From contig PAIY01000099.1 in assembly GCA_002704825.1 (NCBI GenBank), positions 1 through 64,000 of the forward strand: a stretch of 64,000 nucleotides of DNA, read 5' to 3'. Shown here one piece after another: positions 47,130 through 64,000 of this stretch. The position numbers were made by a program, and so were the translations under genes. Source of the DNA: Phycisphaeraceae bacterium (GTDB lineage: Bacteria; Planctomycetota; Phycisphaerae; Phycisphaerales; Phycisphaeraceae). Numbering within the stretch: position 1 is the first letter of the stretch; each line of letters starts with the position of its first letter. The notes beneath the pieces were generated by a model. That model worked only from the letters and a program-made list of their open reading frames with translations. It had not been told where the DNA came from and did no database searches.

Positions 47130-48188
47130 TTACCGGGCGGTCGGCACAGCCAGATCACGCTGGGAGATGTTAAACGGCGCACCTTGAAGCATGGTACCCC
47201 ACTCCGTCGAACGTAGATGTAAGGCCGTCCATGAACTGTTACGGATGTTCGGCGACATGTCGTTCTGTGGCAGGGTGTTTTCAGAAACCTGCATCACACG
47301 GGTGCTGATCCAACGCAGAATCTGTTCTGAGAGCAGGATCATGCTGGTGTACTGGTTTTGCAGGGATTGATGCACACGGCCCTGGTCGAGCGCTCGGCTG
47401 CAATGAAGCATGAACCGAAACGCGGCACGGGCGAACTGCTTGGCAATCTGCAAGGTGATTTCCTGACCGCCTGCCTGCTCGGTGACGATATTCTTAAACA
47501 GAATTCTCATTGCATCGTAATCGGCTTTGAGCGTGATGGTCGGGTTGCCATGATGCACATTCACATGTTCGTTAAGCGCAAAAAGCATCGTGCTTCGGGC
47601 CTGAGGGATGGTTAACTGACTCATGCTCCCGAGAATCTGCTCGATGACCACCTGATCCGGCTCATTGAAAAACACATTCTGCAAGAGTGTCAGAATCATC
47701 ACCTGTGAAGGATTGTCGAGTTTGGCACCAAGCTTGCCAGCAGCCTGGGCTGCCAGATAACGGATCGCCGGGTTGGTGTCCGCCAAACCTGCCTGGACAA
47801 TCGGAATCGCCGACTTGTCTGAAAGATCCGCCAGACAAAGCATGGCATTGAAACGAACAATCATGCGCTGCGACTGAATGAGTTTTTCGGGAATCTTTTC
47901 AATCAACGTCGATGAATAGGCCGCAGCAAAGACTTTGGACTTGGAAGGATGTCGCAGTGGCGAGACCAATTGATCACGCGCTGCGGAGACTTCCGGGTCC
48001 GGGCTGGTGAGCATTTTCTGAATCCAGAAATTGGCATACTCATCAAGCTTGAGCTGTTGGGCACCATCGAGTGTCGACGGGGTTGAAATCAAATCGGTGT
48101 CGAGTTTGAGCTGTTGTGCATTGGCGTTGATGCCGGTGAGGACAACCGTCAAAACAATGATGATCGCAGAGAACATTCGCAAGTTCAT
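47130..48188 (-). CDS. Secreted HEAT-repeat protein
   Basis: The 352-residue protein has a signal peptide (FSAIIIVLTVVLTGINANA, cut after ANA) and helical repeats; RYLAAQAAGKLG at about residues 140-155 is a clear HEAT unit and VRFNAMLCLADLSD another. HEAT arrays bind protein partners; no catalytic motif is seen. The ATG at 48188 is preferred because GGAGG lies 9 nt upstream; the ATG at 48194 is only 3 nt from it. It is divergent from the SNF2 gene, with 277 nt between them that hold no recognised gene. Confidence 0.75.
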   Translation of the reverse strand: MNLRMFSAIIIVLTVVLTGINANAQQLKLDTDLISTPSTLDGAQQLKLDEYANFWIQKMLTSPDPEVSAARDQLVSPLRHPSKSKVFAAAYSSTLIEKIPEKLIQSQRMIVRFNAMLCLADLSDKSAIPIVQAGLADTNPAIRYLAAQAAGKLGAKLDNPSQVMILTLLQNVFFNEPDQVVIEQILGSMSQLTIPQARSTMLFALNEHVNVHHGNPTITLKADYDAMRILFKNIVTEQAGGQEITLQIAKQFARAAFRFMLHCSRALDQGRVHQSLQNQYTSMILLSEQILRWISTRVMQVSENTLPQNDMSPNIRNSSWTALHLRSTEWGTMLQGAPFNISQRDLAVPTAR

Positions 48189-48465
48189 GAACATGAACCT
48201 CCGTGCTAGTTGGGAGGGATTGGGGAAAATCTACTCAAACCTTATCACTCAGAAGGTTTACTGTCAAACAACTGACTCCCGCCAAATCCGCATAAACCTT
48301 TACATTTCAAGCGGTAGAGTCGAACCAGAAAGATCGGAGCAACATTGGCCCGCCTTGCAGAAACAACTTTTGGTGGTATGCTTGGTGATTCGGCGTGGCG
48401 TTGGGGTGATTCACTGAGTCGCCCCGCTGCCGATGGCCTGATTTCGATATCCCGCGGAGAGACTT

Positions 48466-51400
48466 ATGTCCTGGTTATTGGCATGGCAGCCATACTTCAG
48501 CCCCAAAATGCGAATGACGGGGCGTGCGCATCAAACCAACAACCGTGTTCAACGGGTGCCGGTGGAAAACGGCACGCTGGCACAGTTTGTCATCACCGAT
48601 GAACAAAGCGAAACCTTCGAAGTCGAACTGGCTCCAGGAGGCTCGGGTAATCGCGTCGCCGTCGGCTGCACCTGTGATCAATGCGAAGAAGCCGGCATGT
48701 GTGAACACATCTACGGCGCACTGGTTGAACTCTCCGAATATCCCGAAGGCCGTGATGACGATCACACCCGCGTGGAAAATATCCGCCCGTCATCCCCCAA
48801 AGCTCGTAAACGCGAACGCTCCAAAATCAACGTGATCACACGCACCGAACCGGTCTGGGCCACACGCCTAAGTCACCTGCGTGTCGGGTCACTCTCCGGC
48901 GATGCTGCCCAATCGCATCTGCCCGTGCAGCGTCAGGTCTGCTACATCCTCCAACCGGAAGCGTCCTTCCGACACAACAGCGCGGTGATCGAACTGCGTT
49001 TCCGTCAGCCGACGCGCGACGGTTGGTCTGCCCCCAAACAATTTAAAGTCAGTGAACAGATCATCCACACACTCACCGAACCCGAAGACAAGCAGCTTTG
49101 CTCGCTGCTGATGGGGGGTTCGCATCCGGTGGAGGATGACTGGTCCAGCCGTTCGTCATCGCGCGCGATTTCGCGGTCGCAGTGTGTGTTCGTGCTTCCC
49201 CAGGGAGGTCGCCAACTGCTGCTTGCAAGGATGATCCGAACCGGCCGCTGTCTGCTTGCTGCTGAGGGGAACAATCTCCTGCCGCTGAGTTGGGATGCCG
49301 ATGATCCCGATGTCATGCAGACTTCCTCACCGCGTCCGCCTTGGGCGTTGTGGTTGGTTGGCAATCTTTCTGAAGACGAACAAAAAGTCGGCTTTGAGTT
49401 GGAACTGCGTCGTCAAGGTCACACCATGCCTGCCGACAAGCCGGATCTGATTCTTTCAGGCCACGACGGGATTGTGGTCTACGACAACATGGTCGCCCCA
49501 TTTTATGATCACGGCGCCAGCCAGTGGATCAATCAGTATCGCGATGAACTGGGTCGGCACGAATCGGTTGAAAAACTCGAAGTGCCCATGGATGACCTCT
49601 CGCGTTTCCTGGATCGACTGTACAAGTTGCCCCAGATTCCCGAAGTCGATTTGCCGGATGATGTCGGTTGGACCGAGCAGCGCATTCGCCCGGAACAGAA
49701 CATCGAGATCTTCAGCCCCGCAGCGACCACGGAAAACTCCAAGCAACTCAAAGGCACACTCACCGCCCGTCCCTGGTTTTCCTATGGCAATGCTCGCGTG
49801 AATCCCTCGCAGCCCGGCCGCTTTGTCACCGACTCTCCCGCCCCACCCCCGCCGGCAGAGGAGTCCGACGAAGAGCAAAGCAGCGACGAACAAAACGCTC
49901 AGCAAAACACCGCTGACGAAACAACGAACACAGACACGCAAGCCACAACGGAAACTGAAAATCAAACCGTCGAGGCGTTAAATGACGAAGCATCAACCGA
50001 TGCTCAACAGGATGAGCAATCGCAGGACAACACACCAGCGTCTGACAACACCGAGGATGTTGGTGACAATGGTGATGATGACGCCAGCGACACATTGACG
50101 ACGCAGAACCTTGTCCGTCGTGACATTCGGTTTGAACATGATTGCCTGGCGTGGCTGTTGACCATCGGCATGAAGCAGAATCCGTCAAACCCCGGCGAAC
50201 TGCTGAGTTTCCCCGCCAAAAGCCTGCCCAACATTGTCTCGGAATTGCTTGCACATGGTTGGGGTGTCACCGCTGACCAGCGCGTCGTCCGCCAATCCGG
50301 CCCAGCACGCCTGTCGGTCTCCTCGGGGATCGACTGGTTTGAACTGCGCGGCAGCGTCAAGTTCGAAACTGAAAACGGGACCGAAGAAATCGCCCTGCCC
50401 CAACTGCTTGCTGCTGCACGCACAGGCCGCACGATGATCCAACTCTCCGACGGATCACACGGTCTGCTTCCAGACGAATGGCTTAACGAGCATGGCCTGC
50501 TGACCACCATCGGTGAGTTGCAGGACGATCACCTGCGATTCAAGTCCAACCAGGCTGCGATCCTTGATGGTTTGTTGCGCAAGCAGGAACTGGTGAGTGT
50601 CGACGAAGCCTTTGCCCAGGCCCGCCAGAAACTCCGCGAGTTTGATGGCATCAAGCCCCTTGAAACCACCGAAAACTTCCACGGTGAGCTTCGCCCCTAC
50701 CAGGCTGAAGCGCTGGGTTGGTTCGACTTCCTTCGCCAATTCGGCATGGGCGGTATTCTTGCTGACGACATGGGTCTGGGTAAAACCGTTCAGGTGTTGG
50801 CATTGCTTGCATCGCGCGTCTGGCTTCGCAAGCAACAGGAACAGGCCAGCGGTATCCCCAAACAACCGGTACTCATCGTTGCCCCGCGATCGGTGGTGTT
50901 TAACTGGATTGATGAAGCCGAGCGCTTCACGCCGGAACTGCGCGTGCTTGCCTATGCTGGTAACGAACGTGAAAAACTCCGCGAACAGTTCAAGGATCAC
51001 GACCTGATCGTCACCAGCTTTGGCTTGATGCGTCGCGATATCACCGAACTGCGCAACTGCCCGTTTGACTATGTGGTGCTCGACGAAGCGCAGGCGATCA
51101 AGAATCCGTCCAGCCAATCCGCCAAGGCAGCGCGCTTACTCAACACGCAACACCGCCTTGCCTTGACGGGTACACCGGTGGAAAACCACCTGGGTGATCT
51201 GTGGTCCATCTTCGAATTCCTCAACCCCGGCTTCCTGGGTTCATCGCTTCGCTTCGGTCAACTGGTCCGTGGTGATATAGGTTCGAAGTCTTCGGCCAAG
51301 CCGACGATGAGTAACCGTGGTGTCGAGAAACCCAAGACGAATGTGGCCAATCAGATTGCTGACGCCCTGCGCCCGTTTATTCTCCGCCGAACCAAGAAGC

Positions 51401-52173
51401 AGGTGCTCAAGGATCTGCCCGACAAGACCGAACAGACCATCGTCTGCGAAATGGAACCGCAGCAGCGCAAACTCTACGACGAATTGCGTCTGCATTACCG
51501 CAACTCCCTGCTGGGGTCCAAGAGCGGCCTGCCCACCGATGGCAGCGAAGGTTCGGTCCCCGCATCCAGCGGTGGTTCAGCGATGATGGTGCTCGAAGCC
51601 CTGCTGCGTTTGCGTCAGGCATCCTGTCACCCGGGCCTGATCGACCCCAACCGTCGCGGCGAACCGTCCGCCAAACTCGAAGCGCTCATCGAAATGGTGC
51701 TCGAATTGGCGGAGGAAGGTCACAAGGCATTGATCTTCAGCCAATTCGTCGAAATGCTTTCGATTGTCCGCAGCCGTCTTGAAGAGCATGGCATTGTCTA
51801 CGAGTATCTCGACGGTCAGACACGTGACCGCAAACGTCGCGTCCAGCGTTTCCAGGATGATCCGGATTGTCCCGTCTTCCTGATCAGTCTCAAGGCCGGT
51901 GGTCTGGGTCTGAACCTCACGGCAGCGGAGTATGTGTTTATTCTCGACCCGTGGTGGAATCCTGCAGTTGAACAGCAGGCCATCGACCGAACGCACCGTA
52001 TCGGTCAGACGCGTCACGTGTTTGCATATCGCATGATCTGTCAGAACACCGTGGAGCAGCGCATCGCCGAGTTGCAGGATCGCAAACGCCAGTTGGCTGA
52101 CGCCATTGTCGGCGGTGATCAATCACCGTTGCGTAATCTCTCGCGTGAGGATCTGGAACGTCTTCTAAGTTAA
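48466..52173 (+). CDS. SWIM zinc finger and SNF2-type DEAD/H ATPase
   Basis: The 1235-residue protein has an N-terminal SWIM finger (CTCDQCEEAGMCEH, about residues 68-81), a central non-catalytic region, an acidic Glu/Gln/Thr/Asp-rich linker (about residues 465-545), and a C-terminal SNF2 motor. Motif I is ADDMGLGKT (about 765), motif II DEAQ (about 871) and motifs V-VI lie in GGLGLNLTAAE and QAIDRTHRIGQ. It is a bacterial RapA/HepA-like SNF2 ATPase that should remodel nucleic acid-protein complexes. GGAGAG precedes the ATG. Confidence 0.9.
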   Translation: MSWLLAWQPYFSPKMRMTGRAHQTNNRVQRVPVENGTLAQFVITDEQSETFEVELAPGGSGNRVAVGCTCDQCEEAGMCEHIYGALVELSEYPEGRDDDHTRVENIRPSSPKARKRERSKINVITRTEPVWATRLSHLRVGSLSGDAAQSHLPVQRQVCYILQPEASFRHNSAVIELRFRQPTRDGWSAPKQFKVSEQIIHTLTEPEDKQLCSLLMGGSHPVEDDWSSRSSSRAISRSQCVFVLPQGGRQLLLARMIRTGRCLLAAEGNNLLPLSWDADDPDVMQTSSPRPPWALWLVGNLSEDEQKVGFELELRRQGHTMPADKPDLILSGHDGIVVYDNMVAPFYDHGASQWINQYRDELGRHESVEKLEVPMDDLSRFLDRLYKLPQIPEVDLPDDVGWTEQRIRPEQNIEIFSPAATTENSKQLKGTLTARPWFSYGNARVNPSQPGRFVTDSPAPPPPAEESDEEQSSDEQNAQQNTADETTNTDTQATTETENQTVEALNDEASTDAQQDEQSQDNTPASDNTEDVGDNGDDDASDTLTTQNLVRRDIRFEHDCLAWLLTIGMKQNPSNPGELLSFPAKSLPNIVSELLAHGWGVTADQRVVRQSGPARLSVSSGIDWFELRGSVKFETENGTEEIALPQLLAAARTGRTMIQLSDGSHGLLPDEWLNEHGLLTTIGELQDDHLRFKSNQAAILDGLLRKQELVSVDEAFAQARQKLREFDGIKPLETTENFHGELRPYQAEALGWFDFLRQFGMGGILADDMGLGKTVQVLALLASRVWLRKQQEQASGIPKQPVLIVAPRSVVFNWIDEAERFTPELRVLAYAGNEREKLREQFKDHDLIVTSFGLMRRDITELRNCPFDYVVLDEAQAIKNPSSQSAKAARLLNTQHRLALTGTPVENHLGDLWSIFEFLNPGFLGSSLRFGQLVRGDIGSKSSAKPTMSNRGVEKPKTNVANQIADALRPFILRRTKKQVLKDLPDKTEQTIVCEMEPQQRKLYDELRLHYRNSLLGSKSGLPTDGSEGSVPASSGGSAMMVLEALLRLRQASCHPGLIDPNRRGEPSAKLEALIEMVLELAEEGHKALIFSQFVEMLSIVRSRLEEHGIVYEYLDGQTRDRKRRVQRFQDDPDCPVFLISLKAGGLGLNLTAAEYVFILDPWWNPAVEQQAIDRTHRIGQTRHVFAYRMICQNTVEQRIAELQDRKRQLADAIVGGDQSPLRNLSREDLERLLS

Positions 52174-52226
52174 TCGTCTAAAACAAACACGAGGCGAATT
52201 GCCGCGTGATCTGAAGGGACTTAAAA

Positions 52227-53438
52227 TTGTCGGCCATGAAACACACCTCGATGATATGCGTCCTGACGGGTTGTCTGCTCACAGCGGTGGGCTGTCAATC
52301 CAACAACAAGTCCGCCAAAGTTGATGGCCCCGCCAAGCCTGCCAAAACCGAATCGGTGAAGCTGTCCACGTCGGACTTTGTGCAAACCGAAAGTGAACAG
52401 GCCAGCGCGCCGGTCACCAATCCGACGATTGTCCAGGAAGCAACCAGCGACGACGAGAAAACACTCAACACTTCCAAGGCCGAAGCCGCCACATTCTTTG
52501 TTGCTGGCATGGTTGGTCAGGTCAATGGTCGAGCAATCTATGCTCGCAGTATTTTCAAGGATGTCCACGAACGTTTAACCGACCTTGGCACACGCCTGCC
52601 TGCCCCCCAATTCCGTCAGCAGGCCAGTGCCATGCTTCAGGGGCGACTTAAGCAGATCGTCATGGATGCCTTGATTCTGGGTGAAGCGGAAAACCAACTC
52701 ACCGAGCAAAACCAGATGGGCCTGCTTCATTATCTCAAAGAATTTCGTAAAGAACTCATCCGAGAAGAAGGTATCGGTTCAGCTGAACGAGCGAACCTTG
52801 AAAGTCTCCGCAAAACAGGGATGACCCTGGAACAGCGCGTCAGTGAAAAGCGTAACCAGGTCGTCGTTCAGAACTATCTCAAAGCCAAACTCTGGCCGAA
52901 GATCAACGTCAGTCGCAAGGACATTGAACGCTATTACCGCGATCACTATGAAGACTTCAACCCCCCTGCCGGCCGCACGATTCACATGATCCGTACGCAT
53001 GATGACAACGTGGCCAACCAGATCGACAAGGAACTTCAAAAGGGTCGCAGCTTCCTGGACATCGCAGGTGACAATGTGCTTAACCCACGCGACTGGGAAA
53101 AGAAGGGTTTGTTCGGCAAAGGCATCAAGGGTGAACCCTTTGGCAACGATGCACTCAACGAAGCCACGCTCAAGCTTGCTGCTGGCGGGCACTCACCGCG
53201 CATGAAAGTCGGCTCCATGTACACATGGGTCTACGTCGACACCATCAGTCACGGTGAATCCAAATCGCTTAAGGAAGTCCAACTGGATATCGAACGCATC
53301 CTCAAGCAGCAGCAATACAACCGCTACACCGAGGAATACCAGAAGCGACTTCTGGATGAAGGCAGCTACAACGATCTGGTTGAAATGCACAATCGCCTGC
53401 TGAACATCTGCATGAGCGTCTACGCAGGCCAGTCATGA
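52227..53438 (+). CDS. Parvulin-like PpiC lipoprotein
   Basis: The 403-residue lipoprotein (lipobox AVGC near residue 23) has a SurA-like helical N-terminal half and a parvulin-type domain at about residues 250-345 (GRTIHMIRTHDDNVANQI, FLDIAGDN, ...GGHSPRMKVGSMYTWVYV). It is likely a periplasmic chaperone or prolyl isomerase. AAGGGA lies 7 nt before TTG 52227 and 16 nt before ATG 52236; spacing favours TTG, although ATG cannot be excluded. Its stop overlaps the next start by 4 nt. Confidence 0.78.
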   Translation: MSAMKHTSMICVLTGCLLTAVGCQSNNKSAKVDGPAKPAKTESVKLSTSDFVQTESEQASAPVTNPTIVQEATSDDEKTLNTSKAEAATFFVAGMVGQVNGRAIYARSIFKDVHERLTDLGTRLPAPQFRQQASAMLQGRLKQIVMDALILGEAENQLTEQNQMGLLHYLKEFRKELIREEGIGSAERANLESLRKTGMTLEQRVSEKRNQVVVQNYLKAKLWPKINVSRKDIERYYRDHYEDFNPPAGRTIHMIRTHDDNVANQIDKELQKGRSFLDIAGDNVLNPRDWEKKGLFGKGIKGEPFGNDALNEATLKLAAGGHSPRMKVGSMYTWVYVDTISHGESKSLKEVQLDIERILKQQQYNRYTEEYQKRLLDEGSYNDLVEMHNRLLNICMSVYAGQS

Positions 53439-53842
53439 TTCGGCAACTTTGGCGAAAACTCACGCAACCCAAGCCCCGATCCATTGGGCAGCGTGGTGAG
53501 CAACTTGCTGCAGATCACCTCAAGCAAAGCGGCTATCGGATTCTCGAACGCAATCTCAAAACCAAACAAGGTGAATTGGATATCGTTGCGCTCAGTGCGG
53601 ACCAGAAAACCGTGGTGTTCGTGGAAGTCAAAACCTCAGTCGAGACGGATGCCTATCATCTGCCTGAGTTCCGGGTGGATCATCGCAAACAACGCCAACT
53701 CGTGAAGCTTGCAGCCTACTGGTGTCGTCGCGCCAAACTCGAAAATCTGATGATCCGTTTTGATGTCATCGGCGTGAGTTTCCCATCTGGCAAAGAACCA
53801 CAGATTCGACATATTGAAGGTGCGTTTGAATCTCACGTGTGA
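53435..53842 (+). CDS. YraN/UPF0102 family protein
   Basis: The 135-residue protein has the restriction-endonuclease-like fold motif RNLKTKQGELDIVALSADQKTVVFVEVK (about residues 36-63), the E-x-D-(x)n-E-V-K catalytic-like core of the family. The biochemical role of YraN is not settled; a DNA- or RNA-related nuclease function has been suggested. It is coupled to the parvulin lipoprotein by ATGA. Confidence 0.9.
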   Translation: MIRQLWRKLTQPKPRSIGQRGEQLAADHLKQSGYRILERNLKTKQGELDIVALSADQKTVVFVEVKTSVETDAYHLPEFRVDHRKQRQLVKLAAYWCRRAKLENLMIRFDVIGVSFPSGKEPQIRHIEGAFESHV

Positions 53843-53853
53843 ATCATCCATTC

Positions 53854-53895
53854 AAAAAAACACCTCAACGTTGAGCATTGAGGTGTTTTCATTTT
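53854..53895. terminator. Bidirectional terminator between the yraN-type gene and cheR
   Basis: A 12-bp stem (53857-53868 with 53878-53889, 9-nt loop) is flanked by seven A and a T-rich tract. It is between convergent genes. Confidence 0.9.
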
Positions 53896-53914
53896 CGTGA
53901 CATGGACTGGTGTG

Positions 53915-54769
53915 TTATTTCCTGCGATACATCGACGCACCGATGCGGGTGAACTGTTTGAGCTGTGGCCCCTGGATACTCTCTGCGTGGCCGATCATAA
54001 ACAGGCCACCGGGTTTGAGGAGTCGCAGAACCTGATCGATGATTTTGCTGCGAACATGATTGTCGAAATAAATCATCACATTACGGCAGAAAATGGCGTC
54101 CATCGGCCCCTTCATCGCATAGGGGGCTTCGGTCAAGTTCAAACGGGCAAAGGTGATCATGCGACGTAAATCAGGACTGACCTGTTGCATGCCTGTGGAT
54201 CGGTCGAGTTTGAAATAGCGATTGCGTTCCTCAACAGGAATCGGCTTGATGGCTTCGGTGGGATATTGGCCGACTTTGCAGATCGAAAGCATCTTGGTGG
54301 AGATGTCGGTTGCAAGAATTTTGGCATCGACTTCATTGTGACCAGCCAGGTTCAAGGCGCGTCGGATCACGATGGCCAAGGTGTAGGGTTCCTGGCCGGA
54401 TGAACTGGCTGCCGACCAGATACGCAGTCGTTTTTGGCCGGCGCGAACCCACTGATCGACCGCTTTCAGGAGTTCTTCAAAGTGATGCGGTTCACGGAAA
54501 AACGCGGTCACATTGGTTGAGACGACATTGATCAACTCAACCCATTCATCTTCCTGAGCCTCATTGACCAGAAAATCAAGGTAGTCGGCAAAGCTGCTGA
54601 GCGAAAGGTCTCGCAGACGTTTGCGGATACGGGCGCTGAGCATGGTCCGCTTGGTATCGCGTAAGGTGATGCCACAGCGATCATAGATCATGGAACGTAA
54701 CTTGTTGAACGTGGTCGTATCCATGGGACCACTGTCCTGTATCAAACCCAATCCCGCTTGTATTGCCAT
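53915..54769 (-). CDS. cheR: Chemotaxis protein methyltransferase CheR
   Basis: The 284-residue SAM-dependent methyltransferase methylates Glu residues of chemoreceptors. VSTNVTAFFREPHHF, WSAASSSGQEPYTLA (SAM loop), ILATDIS and RNVMIYFD are the CheR signatures. GGAG lies 8 nt before the ATG at 54769. It is the last gene of the che operon, 94 nt after the haem-type receptor gene. No CheB, CheA or CheY is in this operon. Confidence 0.93.
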   Translation of the reverse strand: MAIQAGLGLIQDSGPMDTTTFNKLRSMIYDRCGITLRDTKRTMLSARIRKRLRDLSLSSFADYLDFLVNEAQEDEWVELINVVSTNVTAFFREPHHFEELLKAVDQWVRAGQKRLRIWSAASSSGQEPYTLAIVIRRALNLAGHNEVDAKILATDISTKMLSICKVGQYPTEAIKPIPVEERNRYFKLDRSTGMQQVSPDLRRMITFARLNLTEAPYAMKGPMDAIFCRNVMIYFDNHVRSKIIDQVLRLLKPGGLFMIGHAESIQGPQLKQFTRIGASMYRRK

Positions 54770-54863
54770 CGTAAAAACTCCAGGTTATGGGAAACCGGCT
54801 GCGACCTTTTCAGATCACAGCCGGTTGGTTGATGAATGTTATTCAGCTTGATGCATGGTTGAT

Positions 54864-56597
54864 TTAGAACTCAGAGAAATCGTCATCGTCATCCAGCGGA
54901 ATCACCTGCTGAGCGTGTGCCTTGGCCGGTTGAGCTTGCTTACGCGGTGCCGGCTTGGACTGATGTGAAACAGCAGGCGTCTTCACCGGTTTGACTCTTG
55001 TTTTGGCACGATGATTACTGCTGCCTTCACCGAAGACGGTGGCGACCAATTCGTTGACCATGCAGTTCAGATCCTCTGCCTGGGCGCTGAGTTCCTGACT
55101 GGCGGCGGCGGACTCTTCACTGCTGGCCGCGTTGGCCTGAGTGACCTGGTCCATCTGTCCCACGGCCTTGGTGATCTGATCAATGCCATCGGCCTGCTCG
55201 GTACTGGCGGAGGAGACCTGATTGATCAGCTGGGTCACGCGTGAGACGGCATCGTCAATCTGTGAAAGTGACGCTTCGGCTTCTGAGGCCACATCCACAC
55301 CTTGATCGGCATTGCGACAGGCGTCTTCGATCAACTGGGCCGTTGACTTGGAGGCTTCGGCACTGCGTTGAGCAAGGCTGCGGACTTCTTCAGCAACCAC
55401 CGCGAATCCCTTGCCAGCTTCACCGGCGCGGGCGGCTTCGACAGCAGCGTTCAAGGCAAGCAGGTTGGTCTGGAAGGCGATCTCATCAATCGTCTTGAGA
55501 ATGCTCGCTGTCTGGTCGGACGAACTCTTGATCTTGCTGATCGTCTGAGTCAGACGTTGCATGGCTTCGTTACCCTTAACCGACACCTGTCGCGCTTCTT
55601 CTGCCATGGTGTTGGCTTCCTGAGCGTTTTGAGCATTCTGTCGGACGGTGGCATTCATCTGTTCCAGTGAAGCACTGGTTTCTTCAAGACTCGATGCCTG
55701 TTCCGAAGCACCTTCTGCCATGGCCTGGCTGGAGCCGGAGACCTGACCGGATGCCTGGGAAACCTGGTCTGCACCACTTTCCATGCGATCGATAATCCGA
55801 CGCAGGGGCAAGCCCAGGACGCGATGGGTCAAGCCGATCAAGCTGACCACAGCCAAAGTCAACAAACCAATCATCCAGATGGCACTGGACTTGGTGAAGC
55901 TTGCCACCTGATTGTCAACCAGCGACATGGGCATCGCCACTTCGAAAGCACCATGCATATCACCGACCTTCCAGCCTTCCATGGGAAATCCAAGTACGTC
56001 AAGGCCGTCCTGATCCGGATCGTACTTGCCACGCGGCTGACCATGGCAACTCATGCAGTCTTCGGTGAGTTTGATGGAACGAAAGTAGTGAAGTGTGTTG
56101 GTCTGCTCATCAATACGGTAAACGGCTTCGTCGCCACCCTTCTTGATCTGATCTTCAAGATCCTGGAGCAAGGTAGCGCGAAATGAGCCGGGCTGCGGTT
56201 CATTGGCTTTATTACGGGCCTCAAAAGCGAGCACCTTAAAGTCCAACCCTTCACGTTTGGCAGCTTTTTCGGCAGCCAACCAACCGGCGACAACCGGGAT
56301 GGACTGGAATGCATTGGTGGCCTTGTAGTCACCTTTGTTCTTGCGAACCGTTTGCATTTCTTCAACGATGGATTTGTTGTCGAAGAGATTGAGATTATTC
56401 ATCTTGGCAACGTGATTCTTGGTTTCATCAGCCACCGCGGTGAATGATGCAGCCCGGTCAGCCATGGCATGTGTGATGTTATCACGATACTTGCTGATGA
56501 ACACGTAATTGATGACGACTGCAACCAGCAGCATCAACACAATCACGGTCAAAACAATTTTTGAGGTGACACCCATCGATTTGAAAAGTTGAAGCAT
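54864..56597 (-). CDS. Methyl-accepting chemotaxis protein with c-type haem sensor domain
   Basis: The 577-residue receptor has TM1 (about residues 13-33), a periplasmic domain with a CxxCH haem motif (CMSCH, residues 181-185) in the Tll0287/DUF3365 style, TM2 (about 236-258) and a long cytoplasmic coiled coil. The tip [20 protein letters not shown] and the flanking methylation helices are typical. The C-terminus ends [11 protein letters not shown]. The haem suggests redox, O2 or NO sensing. It is 127 nt after the larger receptor gene. Confidence 0.9.
55060..55730 (-). repeat. Near-identical signalling-domain DNA, copy 1
   Basis: The DNA coding for the receptor signalling domain here is nearly the same as 56930-57600 in the neighbouring receptor, with long runs identical even at third codon positions. 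This suggests recent duplication or gene conversion. Confidence 0.8.
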
Positions 56598-56724
56598 GAC
56601 TGAATCCTGTTCTATATGACTCGTTTATGTTTCAGAGTCCGGCGGTGTATTCAGACCGTCCACACGGTCATGTCTTGAAATGGGTCGTGTCACCTTTCGA
56701 TGACACGACCACAGGTTGTTATTT

Positions 56725-59412
56725 TCAGAAATCACTCATGTCATCATCGTCATCCAGCGGAATCACAGTGGATGCTTGAGACTTTGAGCTTGCATGTGAA
56801 GCTGCCACTTTTCTGGGCTTGGGTGCATGTGACTTGGTCACTTTGGCAGGTGTTGAACGCATGCTGCGATTGACCTTGCGCTGACCCATCACCATGCCTA
56901 CCAACTCATCGACCATGCTGTTGAGTTCTTCGGCCTGGGCACTGAGTTCTTCACTGGCTGCAGCGGACTCTTCACTGTTGGCAGCATTGGCCTGAGTGAC
57001 CTGGTCCATCTGACTCACAGCCTTGGTCACCTGATCAATGCCATCGGCCTGCTCGTTGCTGGCAGAGGAGACTTCGTTGATCAGTTCGGTCACCTTGGTC
57101 ACCGCTGCATCAATCTGGGTCAGTGACGCTTCGGCTTCTGAAGCCACGTCCACACCTTGATCGGCATTGCGACAGGCGTCTTCAATCAATTGAGCCGTTG
57201 ACTTGGATGCTTCGGCACTGCGTTGAGCAAGGCTGCGGACTTCTTCAGCGACCACCGCGAATCCCTTGCCAGCTTCACCTGCGCGGGCGGCTTCGACAGC
57301 AGCGTTCAAGGCAAGCAGGTTCGTCTGGAAGGCGATCTCATCAATTGTCTTGAGAATGCTTGCTGTCTGGTCGGAGGAATCCTTGATCTTGCTGATCGTC
57401 TGCGTCAGTCGCTTCATGGCTTCATTGCCCTTGACCGACATGCTGCGGGCTTCTTCAGCCATGCTGTTGGCAGACTGTGCGTTTTGAGCATTCTGACGGA
57501 CGGTGGCATTCATTTGTTCCAGTGAAGCACTGGTTTCTTCAAGACTCGATGCCTGTTCCGAAGCGCCTTCTGCCATGGATTGGCTGGAACTTGAAACCTG
57601 GTCAGATGCCTGCGAAACCTGCGAGGCACCGTTTTCCATACCATCAATAATGCGACGCAACGGACGGATGATGCCTGAGGCAATGAAGAAGGCCAGGACG
57701 CTGCCGATGATGATGGTGAGGATCGCACCCGTGGAAGTGAGCACACTGGAGGAATTGATCTGAGCAAGCATTTTTTCCTGTTGCCCTTCGCCAAGATGTT
57801 GACATTCATCAACAAAGTCCTTGACCGCTGTCACGAGACGCCCTTCGGACGTATACTTTTCGCCCATCAGTTCGCCCCACTGATCGACTGACTTCTGATA
57901 GTCAACCGCCAGTTTTTTCAGATCGTCAACGGTTTTCTTGTCACGGGGATCAAGGAGTTTTTCAACCAGTCCATCACAAAGCTCCAGAATCTTTGCCACG
58001 GATTCGTGGTTTTTATCCAGGTAAGCTGTATCCTGGTGCATCATAAAATTCATTTCATGGCGACGAGCGATACCCGCCTGAATGATCAGTTCGCCAGCCG
58101 TATCTGAAGTCCACTGTTTGCGCTGTTCATCTGCAAGCAAAGTCTTCTTCAGTTCAACCAATTCTTTTTGCTGCTCTGTTTGAAATGTGTCGCATTGGGC
58201 AAAGAAGACGTTGGCATGCTCGATCATCTTTGATTCGGTTTGACTCTTACTATCAAACAGCGATGCCCACTTCTTGAAAATCTGTTCGTATTGTTGCAGA
58301 TCGTCTGTCAATTCCCTGACACGTTCACGGTCGACTTCCTCTTTGAGAGAATTCAAGAGCTTCGTGCATTGGTTGTTAAGTTGTGCAACCGTCTGCAGAA
58401 GTTTCTTGTTGCTTGCCTCATCCTGCTTGACCATGTAATCCTTTTCAAGGATACGGCATTCCTTGGCCAATTGGATCATGGTTTCAGCCGTCTGCACCTG
58501 GGTTAGCTTGGTCTGAATCACCTGTTGTTGGACTTGTCCGGATTTGACCAGTTCGGTAATCTCAGATGCTTGTTCATGGGCCAGTTTTTCGCAAGTGTCC
58601 TGGAATTTATCGGCAATGGCATCAAGTTCTTTGCTCAATTTGTCCTGGGCACTGTCGTATTCCTGCCAGGTTCCAAGGCCCTGCTTGTATTGCATGGCAT
58701 GGTTCTTGAGTTCAGCGATCAGCTGCTGGTCCTTGGGGTCTTTCAGGGCGGCGATCAGTTGATCAGCAGCATCAGCAATCTGTTTAACGGTCTGATCATT
58801 CTGCTGAAGGTATTGTGCCTCTTTGGTCTGCATGTACTTGATGACTTCAACGCGGCAGGTCTTGGAAAGCGTGCGTAGTTCAGCAGCCAATTCCACCGTC
58901 AGGAGTTTGTCTTCCTGATCTTTGCGGGACTTGTCTTTTAACTGAGCCAATTCAGCTTTCTCTTCTGCTCCCAGTTCATCACATTCCGTGATGAAGTTCT
59001 GGGCCAGGGAGGCCATGCGATCTTCGGCCTGAGACTGTTGATTATCGAGTTGGACCCAATGCGCCAGAGCATCCTGATACTTCTTGGCTTGATCCTTGGC
59101 CTGCATGATGCCTGCGCGGTCCGTCGGATCCATGAATTTATCGTGTGTGATCTGGATCTGTTCGTGAATTTCCTTGAGCACCTTGGCGTTTTCATCCAGA
59201 TCCGATTGCTGCCCTTTACGCATGTAAAGCAGATTGAGAACACGGGCATCCTTGGCCATATTCACCAGTCGATTGGTATCACTGGCCTTGTCGGTGATCT
59301 GCTGAATTTTGTCGACAGCATTAAAGCCGATGTATCCCAGAATGCCGGTGAGGATCAGAACCACTGCAAAGCCTGACGCGATTTTCTTTCCTACAGTCAT
59401 TTTCCCAAACAT
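56725..59412 (-). CDS. Methyl-accepting chemotaxis protein with four tandem helical modules
   Basis: The 895-residue receptor has TM1 (about residues 12-31) and TM2 (about 562-582), with a ~530-residue ligand-side region made of four repeats of about 131 residues. Each has a (Y/F)M start (63, 193, 326, 456), a conserved Trp (119, 249, 382, 512) and a Cys exactly 25 residues later (144, 274, 407, 537). They look like HBM-type helical bundles in tandem. The cytoplasmic part has the [20 protein letters not shown] tip and ends [11 protein letters not shown]. It is 47 nt after cheW. Confidence 0.9.
56930..57600 (-). repeat. Near-identical signalling-domain DNA, copy 2
   Basis: Partner of 55060-55730. 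The two copies lie in the same orientation about 1.9 kb apart, so unequal recombination could fuse or delete the receptors. Confidence 0.8.
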
Positions 59413-59459
59413 GATGATAGTTCCCTTAACGGAAGTGAATTGATTGTGTATCCCAAACG

Positions 59460-60002
59460 TTATGCTGCGACTGCAGGTGTGTTACCTGCATTATTCCCAG
59501 CCGTTTTGACGAGTTCATTTAAGTCCATTGCTGAAAGGACACGCTGAATGTCGAGTAACATGACCACGCGTTGACTGATCTTGGCCACACCGCAGATGTA
59601 GTTCATACTCATATCTGCACCGATGCTCGGCAGGTTGTCGATCTGGTCTTCCTGAATGTCAAGCACTTCGTCGACTTCATCAACCAGGATGCCGATCTGA
59701 ATGACCTGATCTTCGTAGTTCATCTCCACGACGATAATGCAGGTGACTTCGGTGTCTTTCTGTGCCTTCATGCCAAACTTCTGACGCAGATCGACCACTG
59801 GGATGATCCGGCCACGCAGGTTGATCACACCACGGACATACTCAGGCGTTCTGGGGACATGGGTGATGTCCATGAGTCCGATGATTTCACGGACCGCAAG
59901 CAGCGAGACACCGTACTGTTCCTGGCTCAGATGAAACGTCAGATACTTTCCGACCAGGTCACGAACATTGGTTTGAGTGATTGTTTTTTCCTGTTCCGAC
60001 AT
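59460..60002 (-). CDS. cheW: Chemotaxis coupling protein CheW
   Basis: The 180-residue protein has the CheW fold: [48 protein letters not shown] and a C-terminal region with [18 protein letters not shown]. It couples receptors to the CheA kinase. It is the first gene of the operon cheW-mcp-mcp-cheR. A tail of about 20 residues (Asn/Ala-rich) follows the fold. Confidence 0.93.
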
Positions 60003-60372
60003 GTTGCCCTCCCTGTCAATGGGCTTGGCGTTTGACGCCTAATTGGGTTGAACTGAATCTGGACCGCTAACTGGTTGTTGTCATGACAAGACGACACAAG
60101 CCCCGCTCTGCACCCATGCAGCCGGGGTTGACTAATATCTATTTGAAACAGATCTCCAAGTGATTCTTAAAAAAATGCATTGGCACATGCCACCGGTCAA
60201 TCTCCGTAGAACAGAGACTGCTCCCAAAAGTGTCCATGCCCGGAACACCCGCCGGTGTAGTTCATCGGTTGTAAAGTGGAGTTACTTAATATTGTCGATC
60301 TTGTTTTTCAAGATTGAGATATCAGACGTTGATCATGACAAAAAAAATTTGGTTACAATACAGGTCAATGCC
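60003..60372. other. Intergenic region upstream of cheW and tRNA-Arg
   Basis: This 370-nt gap holds a stable two-tier hairpin at 60099-60129 (AGCCCCG/CGGGGTT outer and CTGCA/TGCAG inner stems), about 100 nt before the cheW ATG, probably in the che mRNA leader or promoter. No ORF of significance is present. The tRNA promoter lies at its right end. Confidence 0.5.
60329..60359 (+). promoter_or_regulatory. Promoter of tRNA-Arg
   Basis: A TACAAT -10 (60354-60359) lies 13 nt before the tRNA 5' end. A TTGATC -35-like hexamer (60329-60334) stands 19 nt upstream, a wider gap than usual, across an A-rich tract. Confidence 0.45.
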
Positions 60373-60446
60373 GCGCTCGTAGCTCAGTTGGATAGAGCAG
60401 CGCTTTCCTAAAGCGCAGGTCACAGGTTCGAACCCTGTCGGGCGTA
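60373..60446 (+). tRNA. tRNA-Arg (anticodon CCU)
   Basis: All cloverleaf parts fit: acceptor GCGCTCG with CGGGCGT (two G-T pairs), TA at 8-9, D stem GCTC/GAGC, anticodon stem GCGCT/AGCGC with loop TTCCTAA (anticodon CCT, Arg AGG), T stem ACAGG/CCTGT with TTCGAAC loop, and discriminator A. No CCA is encoded. It is a single gene. Confidence 0.95.
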
Positions 60447-60745
60447 TTATCCTTTTACTGGTTTTTACGTTGATACAATCTTCAATACGACCAACAGTCC
60501 AAGCCGCGTTTGTATCGGACATGATTGTTGAATCATGCGCGTTATGGTTCTGTCAAACTTGGGCAAGCGTCTTGTGCTGATCTTCATTCATTAGGCCGGC
60601 CAGGATGCACGAAACCGAGGGCATTCACCCAATTCTGCAAAACTTGAATGAATGTCCAGCTTGCCAGTTAATTGTTGGTTATCTGGATCAAGTTCATCCA
60701 CGATTTGGCCGATTCATGCATCATGGGTATGCCAGGGAGCTTTCA

Positions 60746-61195
60746 ATGAATGATAAACCGCTTGTTTTAATTGCAGATGACGATCCGGACATGATTAACC
60801 AGATGAAGCTGGTGTTTAAACCCGTGATGGATCAGGTTCAGTTGATCGTAGCAATCAACGGGTTGGAAGCTGTCAGAAAATGCAGCTCGGAAAAACCCAA
60901 TCTGCTTTTACTGGATCATGGCATGCCGGGTCTGGACGGTTTCACAGCATGTCAGATGATTCGGAATATGAATCCTGATCACGATATGGATATCTGGTTC
61001 ATTACCGGACTCGTGGCTGAAGATGACATGCCGTTGGCGATGGAAGTGGGCGCGGATTGCCTGATTCAAAAGCCGATCAACATCCCCCATCTACGTCACA
61101 TGCTCGTTACCCATCTTGGTCTGGAGATCCCCGAAGACGCATCCAGCGTGATTGATCTGACCGATGATGACGACGAAGCATCCGATGCAGCCTGA
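60746..61195 (+). CDS. Single-domain response regulator (CheY-like)
   Basis: The 149-residue receiver domain has the acidic pocket ADDDP (Asp11-13), the phospho-acceptor Asp57 in LLLLDHGMPGLDG, Thr88 and Lys109. There is no output domain; a tail with DLTDDDDEASDAA follows. GGGAG is 7 nt before ATG 60746; a frame opening at 60605 would add 47 residues without such a signal. Lying after the che operon and tRNA, it may serve the receptors or an unlinked kinase. The preceding gap (60447-60745) has no other gene. Confidence 0.88.
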   Translation: MNDKPLVLIADDDPDMINQMKLVFKPVMDQVQLIVAINGLEAVRKCSSEKPNLLLLDHGMPGLDGFTACQMIRNMNPDHDMDIWFITGLVAEDDMPLAMEVGADCLIQKPINIPHLRHMLVTHLGLEIPEDASSVIDLTDDDDEASDAA

Positions 61196-61350
61196 GTGAA
61201 AACATCACAGGTTTGTATTCCCAATCTTCAATCTGATCCCCATTGACACGAATCTGAGCGTTATGCTCATTGCACGTTATCCATAGGGCAGAGTAGCATA
61301 TGCGTTTTGCGATGGCTGGCGGATGTCGGCCTTTTTGTGGATGAGCATCG

Positions 61351-62589
61351 TTGTCGAACCTGAGTGAAAAACCCAATCAACGTCGCTGGCGGGAGATGAT
61401 TTTCCTGGCCATGCTTGCGGCATGCCCCCCGCTTTCGACGGACATGTACCTGCCGGCCATCCCCACGATTGCTGAGTCTTGGCAAGTTGCGTTGAGTACG
61501 GTGAACCTGTCACTGGTGCTGTGGTTTGTCGGGTTTAGCATTGCGTTGCTGATCAGTGGGCCGTTATCGGACCGACATGGTCGCAAGCCCGTGTTAATGG
61601 GTGGGCTGGTGCTCTTTACCCTGGCATCATTGGGTAGTGCAGTGAGTTTGAATGTGACCATGCTCATTACCTGTCGCATCCTCCAGGGGATTGGTGCAGG
61701 CGGGCCGTCTGCGATGTGTCTTGCGATTTGCCGGGATCGGTATGAAGGTCTTGAACGCAAGAAGGTGCTGGCGACGGTGAGTGTGTTACTGACCTTGGCC
61801 CCCATGCTCTCGCCCTCCATCGGTACGTTGATGCTCAGCCAATTCCAATGGCAAGCCATCTTCATTCTCCAGGCCGGCTTTGGTGTGCTACTCATTATTC
61901 TGAGTCTGTTTCAACATGAATCGGCGGCGCAGCTCATCGACACCCCCCTGCTCAAACTGATGGGACGGTATGGCAAACTCACCAGCAATCGCAACTACAT
62001 CCGAAGCACCATCGCTTTGGGCATACTCATCGGTCCGTATCTTGGCTACGTTGCGATCGCACCGATTGTCTATATCAAACTGTATGGACTTTCCGAAGGC
62101 TGGTTCAGCTTCTTCTTTGCCTTCAATGCGATCCTGTACATGATCGGTGCCATGTGCAGCACGCGCATCAGCCATCATGTTGGCGATCACCGATTGCTTA
62201 CCGCCTGCATCCTCGGCACGGTTGTTGGTGGCATCGGCATCATCAGCGTCGGACACTTATCGCCATGGGCTTTTGCTCTGACAATGGGCCTGATTACCAG
62301 CTGTTTTGGGATGACCCGCCCCATCAGTCAGCACATCATTCTCGAACAGGTTCAAACCGATGTCGGGGCAGCGTCATCCATGCTTGTGTTCTTCCAGTTC
62401 ATCGTCGGAGCCATCTGCATGACGTTGGCAGGACTGGGGTGGCCGTCACCGATCAGCGCGTTCGGCATCATGGCGGTGAGTTTTGCAATCGTGGTCATCA
62501 TCCTGTGGCTGGCGATCAAAAAGCAACTGCTCAATCACGAAAACCTTGAACCGGAAAATCAGGAACCGCCGAAAATCGAGGCGTGTTAA
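61351..62589 (+). CDS. Bcr/CflA-type MFS drug exporter
   Basis: The 412-residue protein has 12 predicted membrane segments. CPPLSTDMYLPAIPTI at the first helix and GPLSDRHGRKPVLMGG in the 2-3 loop are strongly Bcr/CflA-like. The start is taken as TTG 61351, since no ATG in frame gives a full first helix; RBS is weak. The stop overlaps the stop of the convergent lipase-like gene by 4 nt (TTAA), so neither has room for a separate terminator. Confidence 0.88.
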   Translation: MSNLSEKPNQRRWREMIFLAMLAACPPLSTDMYLPAIPTIAESWQVALSTVNLSLVLWFVGFSIALLISGPLSDRHGRKPVLMGGLVLFTLASLGSAVSLNVTMLITCRILQGIGAGGPSAMCLAICRDRYEGLERKKVLATVSVLLTLAPMLSPSIGTLMLSQFQWQAIFILQAGFGVLLIILSLFQHESAAQLIDTPLLKLMGRYGKLTSNRNYIRSTIALGILIGPYLGYVAIAPIVYIKLYGLSEGWFSFFFAFNAILYMIGAMCSTRISHHVGDHRLLTACILGTVVGGIGIISVGHLSPWAFALTMGLITSCFGMTRPISQHIILEQVQTDVGAASSMLVFFQFIVGAICMTLAGLGWPSPISAFGIMAVSFAIVVIILWLAIKKQLLNHENLEPENQEPPKIEAC

Positions 62590-63908
62590 TCCTGCTTGAC
62601 TTGAGGTAGTTGATCCTTCAAACGATCCAGAATGATGGGGATAGAAGGCGGCTGTTTGGTTGTGCTGATCACGGGAATCGTCCGCAGCATTGAACGGTGA
62701 TTGGCTTGTACAACCACTTCATCGGAGACACCCTCCAGATGTGCCGACGCCATCGAAACACAGCCGTCCCCAATCCCATTGGTCAACTGCTCGATGGCTT
62801 TGCTGAACTTCTGATCATTCTGACCGCCGTTGAGTAAATCCGCACACTTGGTTTCAAAGTCGCGGACTTCATTCATATCAACGGGGCTGGCATTGCCAAT
62901 GATACAGGTGATGGTCAGACCTTGCGGATTGGGGCGTGCGTTGAGTGTGGTGAGAAATTCACTGTTGGGCAGCAGGTCAATTTTCGCTTCGCCTGCACCA
63001 TCGAACACCGCGCCGAACAACAGGCCATCTCCTGAAAAGGCGCGAACGATTTGATCGCGTATCTCGCCAACGAATTGGAAATGGGCAAGTGGGGAACCGT
63101 GATGCGGTGTGCCCACGGTGATCAGGCGATTGGCTTGCGGATAGCCGGTGTATTTCGTGTTGGTCAAAACTTCACGACTGACCAACCCACCCATGCTGTG
63201 AGCAACAAGACTCATGGATTTGATGCCGGTCGTGGGCAACTTGGCAAGATGCCCCGCAAAGAGATCCGCACTGTCGGTGATGGGTTGATCATTGGGATAA
63301 ACAAACACGAGAACGGTGTGTCCAGCCTGCTGCAAGGCGGGGATCAGTTCGTCCCAGATGTCCCCCGGTTCATCCAGACCATGCACCAGAATCACCACGC
63401 GATCCATTTGAAATTCATTGGGTAAGGGTGCTAACACGCCTTCAGGACGCAGTGACCAGAGGCCATTCTGGGCATAGGCCTGGCTTGCCAGATCAGGGAA
63501 CCAGTTTTCCATTTTCTCCCTGAATTCATGGCGAATCTGCTTGTTTTTCTGACGCATGGCAAGACGATCCACACGCATGACCAATAGCGCATCGGTCGTT
63601 TCAAACGACACCACACCATCAGTAAGTTCACCAAGTGTTTCAAGCTTGAGTTCACCAATCGGCCCGGTCACCGGGATCTTCATATCCGCGCAGCGACGAC
63701 GAACCATCTGGCTTTGAATGTCCAGCCAATCGAACAACTGGCCCAGCAGTTCACCGAGATTCACATCGCCTGAATCCAAAGGCAAACGCACTTCACTCAC
63801 CAATGGGTTGTCATTTTTCGACGAAGTCGTTTGCGCCACAACAGAAAACGTTGTGATGAACATCACACTAATGGTTAACCATATCGTGATGGCGTTAAAT
63901 TGTTGCAT
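62586..63908 (-). CDS. Secreted lipase-like alpha/beta hydrolase
   Basis: The 440-residue protein has a signal peptide (to about residue 27, SVVAQTTSS), then an N-terminal region of about 130 residues, then an alpha/beta-hydrolase fold. VHGLDEPGD forms the oxyanion loop, the nucleophile Ser238 lies in VAHSMGGLVS, and TVGTPHHGSPLA follows, as in bacterial triacylglycerol lipases and PGAP1-like proteins. The ATG at 63908 opens the signal peptide; an in-frame ATG at 63947 adds 13 residues. Substrate unknown. The 92 nt from 63909 to the window end are not recognised. Confidence 0.82.
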   Translation of the reverse strand: MQQFNAITIWLTISVMFITTFSVVAQTTSSKNDNPLVSEVRLPLDSGDVNLGELLGQLFDWLDIQSQMVRRRCADMKIPVTGPIGELKLETLGELTDGVVSFETTDALLVMRVDRLAMRQKNKQIRHEFREKMENWFPDLASQAYAQNGLWSLRPEGVLAPLPNEFQMDRVVILVHGLDEPGDIWDELIPALQQAGHTVLVFVYPNDQPITDSADLFAGHLAKLPTTGIKSMSLVAHSMGGLVSREVLTNTKYTGYPQANRLITVGTPHHGSPLAHFQFVGEIRDQIVRAFSGDGLLFGAVFDGAGEAKIDLLPNSEFLTTLNARPNPQGLTITCIIGNASPVDMNEVRDFETKCADLLNGGQNDQKFSKAIEQLTNGIGDGCVSMASAHLEGVSDEVVVQANHRSMLRTIPVISTTKQPPSIPIILDRLKDQLPQVKQD

Positions 63909-64000
63909 GTCTTTACCTGTTGTCTGAATGCTTGCATGCTGACACATTCGTTCAGCAACGTCACCCGTGAATTGTTAACGTATTATCATACCGTAATCAG

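Follow-up and report, generated by a model that had tools for sequence, protein, structure and literature searches.

A HAMP-less haem c chemoreceptor of apparently chimeric build, probably partnered with an F7-like chemosensory gene set in a planctomycete

The Pfam family PF11845 was defined in a 2026 preprint (PMC12889525) as sCache_heme, a domain with a CxxCH motif in 99% of members and with fusions to methyl-accepting chemotaxis proteins (MCPs) among its architectures. According to that preprint, a signalling-type member without an axial cysteine bound NO tightly and did not form a stable complex with oxygen, and a stand-alone member with the axial cysteine acted as a redox protein. Among chemosensory systems, the stage 1-2 F7 operon has Aer2; PMC7184735 states that the function of early F7 is unclear, reports that many species with Aer2-type F7 run the motor by F6, and speculates that E. 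coli-like receptors arose when the sensor of a 40H-type receptor was swapped in. Here we analyse a haem c chemoreceptor gene at positions 54864-56597 (minus strand) of a 64,000-nucleotide stretch from a Phycisphaeraceae bacterium (contig PAIY01000099.1; the whole stretch is called the window). We regard it as reasonably probable that this receptor feeds an F7-like array, with an NO-sensing sCache_heme input, a HAMP-less 36H bundle, a kinase (CheA_B) encoded on another contig, and an origin as a chimera. The domain, the conservation of its motif, the chimeric build, the loss of HAMP and the gene partnership are supported by comparative sequence analysis. The domain itself is already known; the wiring of the receptor seems new. 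The parts of the receptor are as follows.

54864..56597, minus strand: haem c chemoreceptor, 577 residues, with an sCache_heme input, two transmembrane (TM) helices, no HAMP, a 36H Aer2-like output and an acidic C-terminal tail
56493..56561, minus strand: TM1, residues 13-35, from hydropathy
55890..56492, minus strand: periplasmic PF11845 / sCache_heme sensor, residues 36-236
56043..56057, minus strand: CMSCH c-haem attachment motif, residues 181-185, with His185 the presumed proximal ligand
56412..56414, minus strand: His62, in helix 1 of the sensor; possible distal ligand or pocket residue, a lead only
56298..56300, minus strand: Ile100, aligned with the conserved cysteine of Tll0287-type stand-alone domains
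55827..55883, minus strand: TM2, residues 239-257, from hydropathy
55749..55808, minus strand: HAMP-less junction, close to identical in the neighbouring HBM receptor
55053..55748, minus strand: 36H signalling domain
54867..54905, minus strand: C-terminal tail, ending DFSEF

Pfam places PF11845 (Tll0287-like) at residues 44-223 (E 6.5e-19; 69.2 bits against a curated cut-off of 24.1) and MCPsignal at residues 330-486. Because CMSCH is flanked by two hydrophobic segments in the hydropathy profile, it presumably lies in the periplasmic part. An AlphaFold2 model of the sensor, built from a 16-sequence alignment (A1) and with a pLDDT of 88.6, matched Tll0287 (5B82) best (Foldseek E 2.5e-7; Z 12.2 vs 8.1 for the next entry). 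The structural matches that follow are chemoreceptor and kinase sensor domains at Z of about 6-8, as in a Cache-type fold, and the model's motif-bearing helix (144-150) stands between strands 133-141 and 179-188 as the sCache_heme insert. A profile search found 5B82 plus a chance-level cytochrome c7-like entry. We aligned 72 sensors, comprising those of the window receptor, a second receptor on contig C29 of the same genome and 70 of 79 related loci (L119 and eight frames running off contigs were excluded). C181, C184 and H185 are kept in all 72, and 71 have no cysteine beyond the motif. The original prediction had taken CMSCH for a c-type haem attachment site in a Tll0287/DUF3365-like domain, and profile, structural match and conservation all agree with it. 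Absence of CxxCH from close orthologues would have spoken against that view; the motif is present in both same-genus orthologues found and in 78/79 related loci, the lone exception (L119) having just an 88-residue frame at the match.

These data make covalent haem binding at CMSCH the probable state of the domain. It is very improbable that CMSCH is vestigial or fortuitous, in a domain without haem: it is conserved throughout the alignment, CxxCH arises in only 18 of 100,000 shuffles of the sensor region, the fold is Tll0287-like, and the genome encodes ResB and Cytochrom_C_asm proteins for cytochrome c maturation. Chance-motif and pseudogene readings were rejected on the conservation of the motif and the intact reading frames. 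The conserved cysteine of Tll0287-type stand-alone domains, probably the axial one, aligns on Ile100/Pro101 of the window protein. Lacking this cysteine and being fused to a signalling module, the window sensor therefore belongs with signalling-type sCache_heme (Cluster 2 of PMC12889525). PF11845 is present in 71 of 199 sampled Planctomycetota genomes, and the genome analysed here has three such proteins: the window receptor, the C29 receptor (597 residues, HAMP present, longer signalling domain) and a stand-alone protein on contig C46. The last of these is a lipoprotein-like protein of 214 residues with a cysteine after LLMTG and no evident axial cysteine. Its gene cluster (L032, 2941-12196) also encodes ResB and Cytochrom_C_asm proteins, two further cytochromes (one CBB3-type, one multihaem), a NirB-like protein and a globin that weakly matches flavohaemoprotein.

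Sensor and output of the window receptor point to different relatives. The sensor shares 59% identity with the C29 sensor and 46-53% with those of other full-length relatives outside the genus. In a tree of the 72 sensors it falls in a six-row clade with its orthologues, C29, L093 and L094 (SH-aLRT 100). Its output, by comparison, is 91% identical over 223 residues to that of the neighbouring HBM receptor vs 33% to the C29 output, from which it differs by a 28-residue gap. As this gap fits four heptads, we assign the window receptor to the 36H class and C29 to the 40H class, the class names being our inference. The window output has no net length difference to the Tsr structures 1qu7 and 8c5v and aligns without gaps to E. 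coli Tar over 191 residues, in keeping with 36H. In the output tree it lies nearest to the rows of its two orthologues and of three HBM receptors (L168 and PilJ_C109, lacking the hairpin pattern, were left out of that tree). When the sensor grouping was imposed on the output data, it was rejected (approximately unbiased (AU) test, p-AU 1.9e-35); it weighs against this result that the groups were chosen with the trees already in view and that the trees were quick ones. Thus, the receptor appears to be a chimera with the sensor of a C29-like 40H haem receptor and the output of its own operon's 36H receptor. The swap probably ran in that direction, such that input and TM2 of a C29-related (40H-like) haem receptor would have been joined to the output already in the operon. 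Because the junction without HAMP is almost unchanged in the neighbour, the neighbour's output was apparently used from about PLRRII onwards. With sensors 59% identical and outputs of unequal length, the two haem receptors offer a clean test of array membership.

The second unusual feature of the receptor is the missing HAMP. No Pfam HAMP match was found in the receptor, TM2 being followed by the short junction listed above. In a first alignment, the receptors of the window and of the relatives G001 and G003 lacked about 43 residues exactly at the HAMP position of 14 other haem receptors. The distance from CxxCH to the hairpin is 195 residues in the window, L091 and L092 vs 234-238 in the other 16 haem receptors of the 36H class that were measured, so that 39-43 residues are lacking in the window receptor relative to these. 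We read this as a clean loss of HAMP that, among the haem receptors compared, seems confined to the window's genus. HAMP-less histidine kinases are described in PMC8199190, and one genome's list in PMC6956133 includes two MCPs without HAMP and ligand domain. We did not meet a HAMP-less transmembrane haem chemoreceptor of this arrangement in the open-licence papers searched, which is no proof of its absence from print. A natural receptor of this kind with HAMP-bearing sisters would be useful for probing the role of HAMP.

The receptor gene belongs to a minus-strand operon in the order CheW, HBM receptor, haem receptor, CheR, with gaps of 47, 127 and 94 bases; no terminator-like site was found on the minus strand inside these gaps. 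A sigma-70 scan gave 4 sites against a shuffle mean of 6.0, fewer than in the shuffles, and is uninformative. The surrounding genes are the following.

56725..59412, minus strand: neighbouring receptor, 895 residues, with an HBM input, the same HAMP-less 36H output and a tail ending DMSDF
59460..60002, minus strand: CheW
53915..54769, minus strand: CheR, with Salmonella CheR as its best solved match
60605..61195, plus strand: divergent response regulator, which also adjoins the operon in G001 and G003

The original prediction held that this operon has CheW and CheR without CheA and uses a kinase encoded elsewhere. CheA was indeed not found among the proteins examined in positions 48000-64000 of the window, and a genome-wide search (6.4 Mb assembly, 268 contigs, 89% complete) gave three CheA matches, all on contigs other than the window's. 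Cluster A on contig C107 is complete, with CheY, CheA, CheR, CheW, an MCP and CheB. Cluster B on contig C51 has CheY and CheA_B and, divergently, a histidine kinase, a response regulator, CheD, CheY2, CheX and CheB; CheW, CheR and an MCP were not found in it within the 17 kb examined. The window operon holds exactly what cluster B lacks, namely CheW, MCPs and CheR. In G001, a relative assembled as a single contig, the two halves are at about 1.87 and 7.07 Mb, which makes the split genuine in that genome; in G027 they are neighbours. G047 has in one run a CheA closest to CheA_B, CheW, a haem 36H receptor, CheR, CheY2, CheB and one unassigned frame, with CheD also located by tblastn, and L131, L153, L159 and L161 combine a CheA closest to CheA_B with CheW and a 36H haem receptor.

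Across 61 genomes, CheA_B-like CheA (best hit of at least 441 bits) and 36H receptors (at least 200 bits over the output) occur together in 7 and each alone in 1 (p 1.4e-7; p 5.8e-5 with the genus collapsed). Several points weigh against this pairing. The score limits were chosen once the scores were known, and counts over related genomes are not independent of one another. G005 carries a 36H receptor but no CheA_B-like CheA, and G021 shows the reverse, these two assemblies being 83% and 82% complete. The absent kinase is nevertheless most probably CheA_B on C51, to which we expect the receptor to couple. CheA_B (L027 7005-9875) has a long N-terminal region before the Hpt at 298-397, and two Hpt stretches are reported in it. 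The receptor could instead join the main array and signal through CheA_A or CheA_C, given that the genome has three CheA genes and 17 MCP matches above cut-off (the window's two included), mostly of the longer output class. We consider this unlikely, since the output length differs by the 28-residue gap noted above and the che neighbours of tailed 36H haem receptors are mostly of the window/B type, those of the three 40H-like receptors near che genes being A-type.

With CheA_B as the preferred kinase, the combined window and C51 set resembles an F7 system. Vibrio Aer2 is the top NCBIfam match of both window receptors, over output and tail and up to the profile's last residue, at a score below the cut-off. 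For all six E. coli F7 proteins compared (CheA, CheW, CheR, CheB, CheY and Tar), the window/C51 set gave a better-scoring alignment than did cluster A or the 40H-like output. A CheD, of whichever class, is encoded on C51. The assignment has points against it. The NCBIfam matches of four window proteins are all below curated cut-offs. E. coli CheA aligns to CheA_A in two pieces (307 + 64 bits, 43% over 416 residues) and to CheA_B at 375 bits (36% over 642), so the class cannot be assigned from CheA by itself. In G047, the best match of the tailed haem receptor is E. coli MCP II, with Aer2 fifth. The relative G019, of the same family, in turn has a corresponding run of an MCP, two unassigned frames, CheW, CheR, CheD, CheY2, CheX and CheB, with its CheA on another contig. 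The receptor of this run matches Aer2 positions 36-765 of 804 (683 bits, below the cut-off of 1200), and its PAS matches solved Aer2 PAS domains, keeping the FH-NPA stretch and the tryptophan of 3VOL's WTD. We take these to be haem-pocket residues of Aer2 PAS, and the G019 receptor is predicted to bind haem.

What the pathway drives is nearly an even call. It may be non-flagellar and serve another output, as stage 1-2 Aer2-type F7 systems may; the output is Aer2-like, and the motor might need no more than cluster A, whose che set is complete and includes a 40H-like receptor. Against this, CheY1 of cluster B shares 72% identity with the CheY of cluster A, suggesting a common target (between CheY1_B and its counterparts in G001 and G003 the identity is 98% and 97%), and FliG is present in the genome. 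A flagellar output is plausible, and FliG together with this CheY beside CheA_B likewise makes plausible the taxis proposed in the original prediction.

For the signal, that prediction had named redox or gas. Oxygen is weakened, since the signalling-type member described in PMC12889525 formed no stable oxygen complex. NO is probably the likeliest signal, with redox the main rival. We rank NO first because of the missing axial cysteine, the NO-binding signalling-type member and a genome-encoded chain with NorB cytochrome c-like and COX1 domains in Pfam; with such a chain encoded, NO is likely to be encountered. This ranking meets three objections: the NorB-like chain has no NCBIfam match, NO as a ligand rests on one signalling-type protein in the preprint PMC12889525, and GSU0582/GSU0935, MCP domains with studied structures, are interpreted in PMC8396549 as redox sensors, though they also bind NO. 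A redox sensor rather than a gas sensor, in which distal ligation of the haem switches with oxidation state and reports electron-acceptor supply, is possible but doubtful. It would be in line with the redox-linked ligand change of the c-haem domains GSU0582/GSU0935 (PMC8396549) and with 3B42 (GSU0935) among the Foldseek matches of our model (rank 4, E 0.011). His62, kept in 61/72 sensors, could act as the distal ligand. This residue is replaced in 11/72 sensors, hence not an invariant ligand, and position 66, a methionine in the window protein, is Met in only 8/72. As sixth ligand of a bis-His haem, His62 is attractive for its first-helix position; we retained it as a lead only, because it is replaced in those 11 sensors.

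With NO as the favoured ligand, signalling would probably proceed as follows. Haem at CMSCH in a sensor without the axial cysteine would leave the iron open to a small ligand, most likely NO, with redox second. As there is no HAMP, the ligand change would pass via TM2 directly into the 36H bundle and, through the operon's CheW, would alter CheA_B on C51. The operon's CheR and the CheB and CheD of C51 would adapt the receptor.

The tail of the receptor bears on this adaptation. DFSEF forms its last five residues and fits the tether motif x-[HFYW]-x-x-[HFYW]; DLSDF in G003 and DMSDF in the neighbouring receptor do not. PMC2577667 gives the pentapeptide as xWxxF for 36H and xF/YxxF/Y for 34H, and according to PMC7390727 receptor families with ligand domains other than TarH have no pentapeptides, which counts against a tether here. 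By our reading of the alignment, the operon's CheR keeps only G194 of the Salmonella CheR contacts Q182, R187, G188, G190, G194 and R197, and its loop is 2 residues shorter. We therefore rejected DFSEF as a plain CheR tether: the CheR is without most contact residues, and the motif fits the 34H rather than the 36H pattern. The tail may dock CheR otherwise, or CheB or CheD. The best match of the cluster A CheR is P. aeruginosa CheR1, a short-loop CheR according to PMC3062574.

The tail goes with the operon. Haem receptors of the 36H class occur at 20/79 loci; all 6 of those with a tail (IP...F) are near che genes vs 0/12 tailless ones within the fetched flanks (p 5.4e-5, kinship uncorrected). 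L161 and L116, which run off contigs, are excluded; the automatic tail rule found 5 tails in the 79 loci, and L131 (IPMETDDVLASF) was added by eye. The che neighbours of the tailed receptors are mostly of the window/B type, L136 having no CheA in reach and L091 and L092, of the genus with the split set, having CheW and CheR as sole che neighbours. Among 40H-like haem receptors, 3/52 are near che genes, which are A-type. The Verrucomicrobiota haem receptors L146, L160, L165, L167 and L169 have another output class and lie near CheW, CheB and CheR, three of them with CheA in reach.

Other receptors of the operon share the output. The HBM receptor (56725-59412, minus strand) has the same HAMP-less output as the haem receptor, and so does a third receptor in G003 (L081 6224-8569) with CZB zinc-binding repeats. 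Since HBM, haem and CZB receptors have one output, the operon looks like a site of input exchange on one fixed output. The divergent regulator at 60605-61195 (plus strand) terminates in acidic residues (VIDLTDDDDEASDAA) similar to those in the receptor tails; G001 has this regulator too, and G003 a shorter version of it.

On the sensor tree, haem sensors with a tailed output are not one clade (p-AU 0.007) and require at least 3 changes, gain and loss being indistinguishable. If the changes are gains, haem sensors were recruited repeatedly, which would hint, testably, at what the system senses. Tentatively, F7 might be a haem-gas (NO) or redox pathway whose inputs were swapped repeatedly with haem kept, as cytoplasmic b-haem PAS in Aer2 (probably also in G019) and as periplasmic c-haem sCache elsewhere; the window receptor would be a 40H-to-36H swap in which HAMP was lost and TM2 drives the bundle. 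Its swap has the form speculated on in PMC7184735, here in another phylum and with relatives of both parents in one genome. If true, the window preserves a type of swap so far proposed only in speculation on how the E. coli chemotaxis receptors arose, with the donor's relative still in the genome.

Compared with described systems, the receptor has both shared and differing features. It shares its fold and CxxCH with Tll0287 (5B82), which is a stand-alone protein with the axial cysteine that the window receptor lacks. With the sCache_heme family of PMC12889525 it has in common the domain, CxxCH, the MCP fusion and, as in the tested signalling type, the absence of the axial cysteine. HAMP, by contrast, is among the associated domains in the Figure 2 legend of that preprint, whose main text does not contain the term 'planctomyc' and which, as far as consulted here, describes no HAMP-less 36H chimera or F7 link. 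GSU0582/GSU0935 of Geobacter sulfurreducens (3B47, 3B42) likewise carry a periplasmic c-haem domain on an MCP; they differ in having HAMP and a distal Met, and PMC8396549, as far as it bears on them here, describes no F7-like partner operon. Aer2/McpB of F7 (Che2) systems (PMC7184735, PMC7698151) shares the 36H output, a tether-like C-terminal end, CheW, CheR, CheD and CheB, and a haem input. Relative to the Che2 set given in these sources, the window/C51 set adds CheX and CheY2 and is split in two. Aer2 itself is, according to the same sources, a mostly cytoplasmic protein with PAS and multiple HAMP domains, whereas the window receptor places a periplasmic c-haem on a HAMP-less output.
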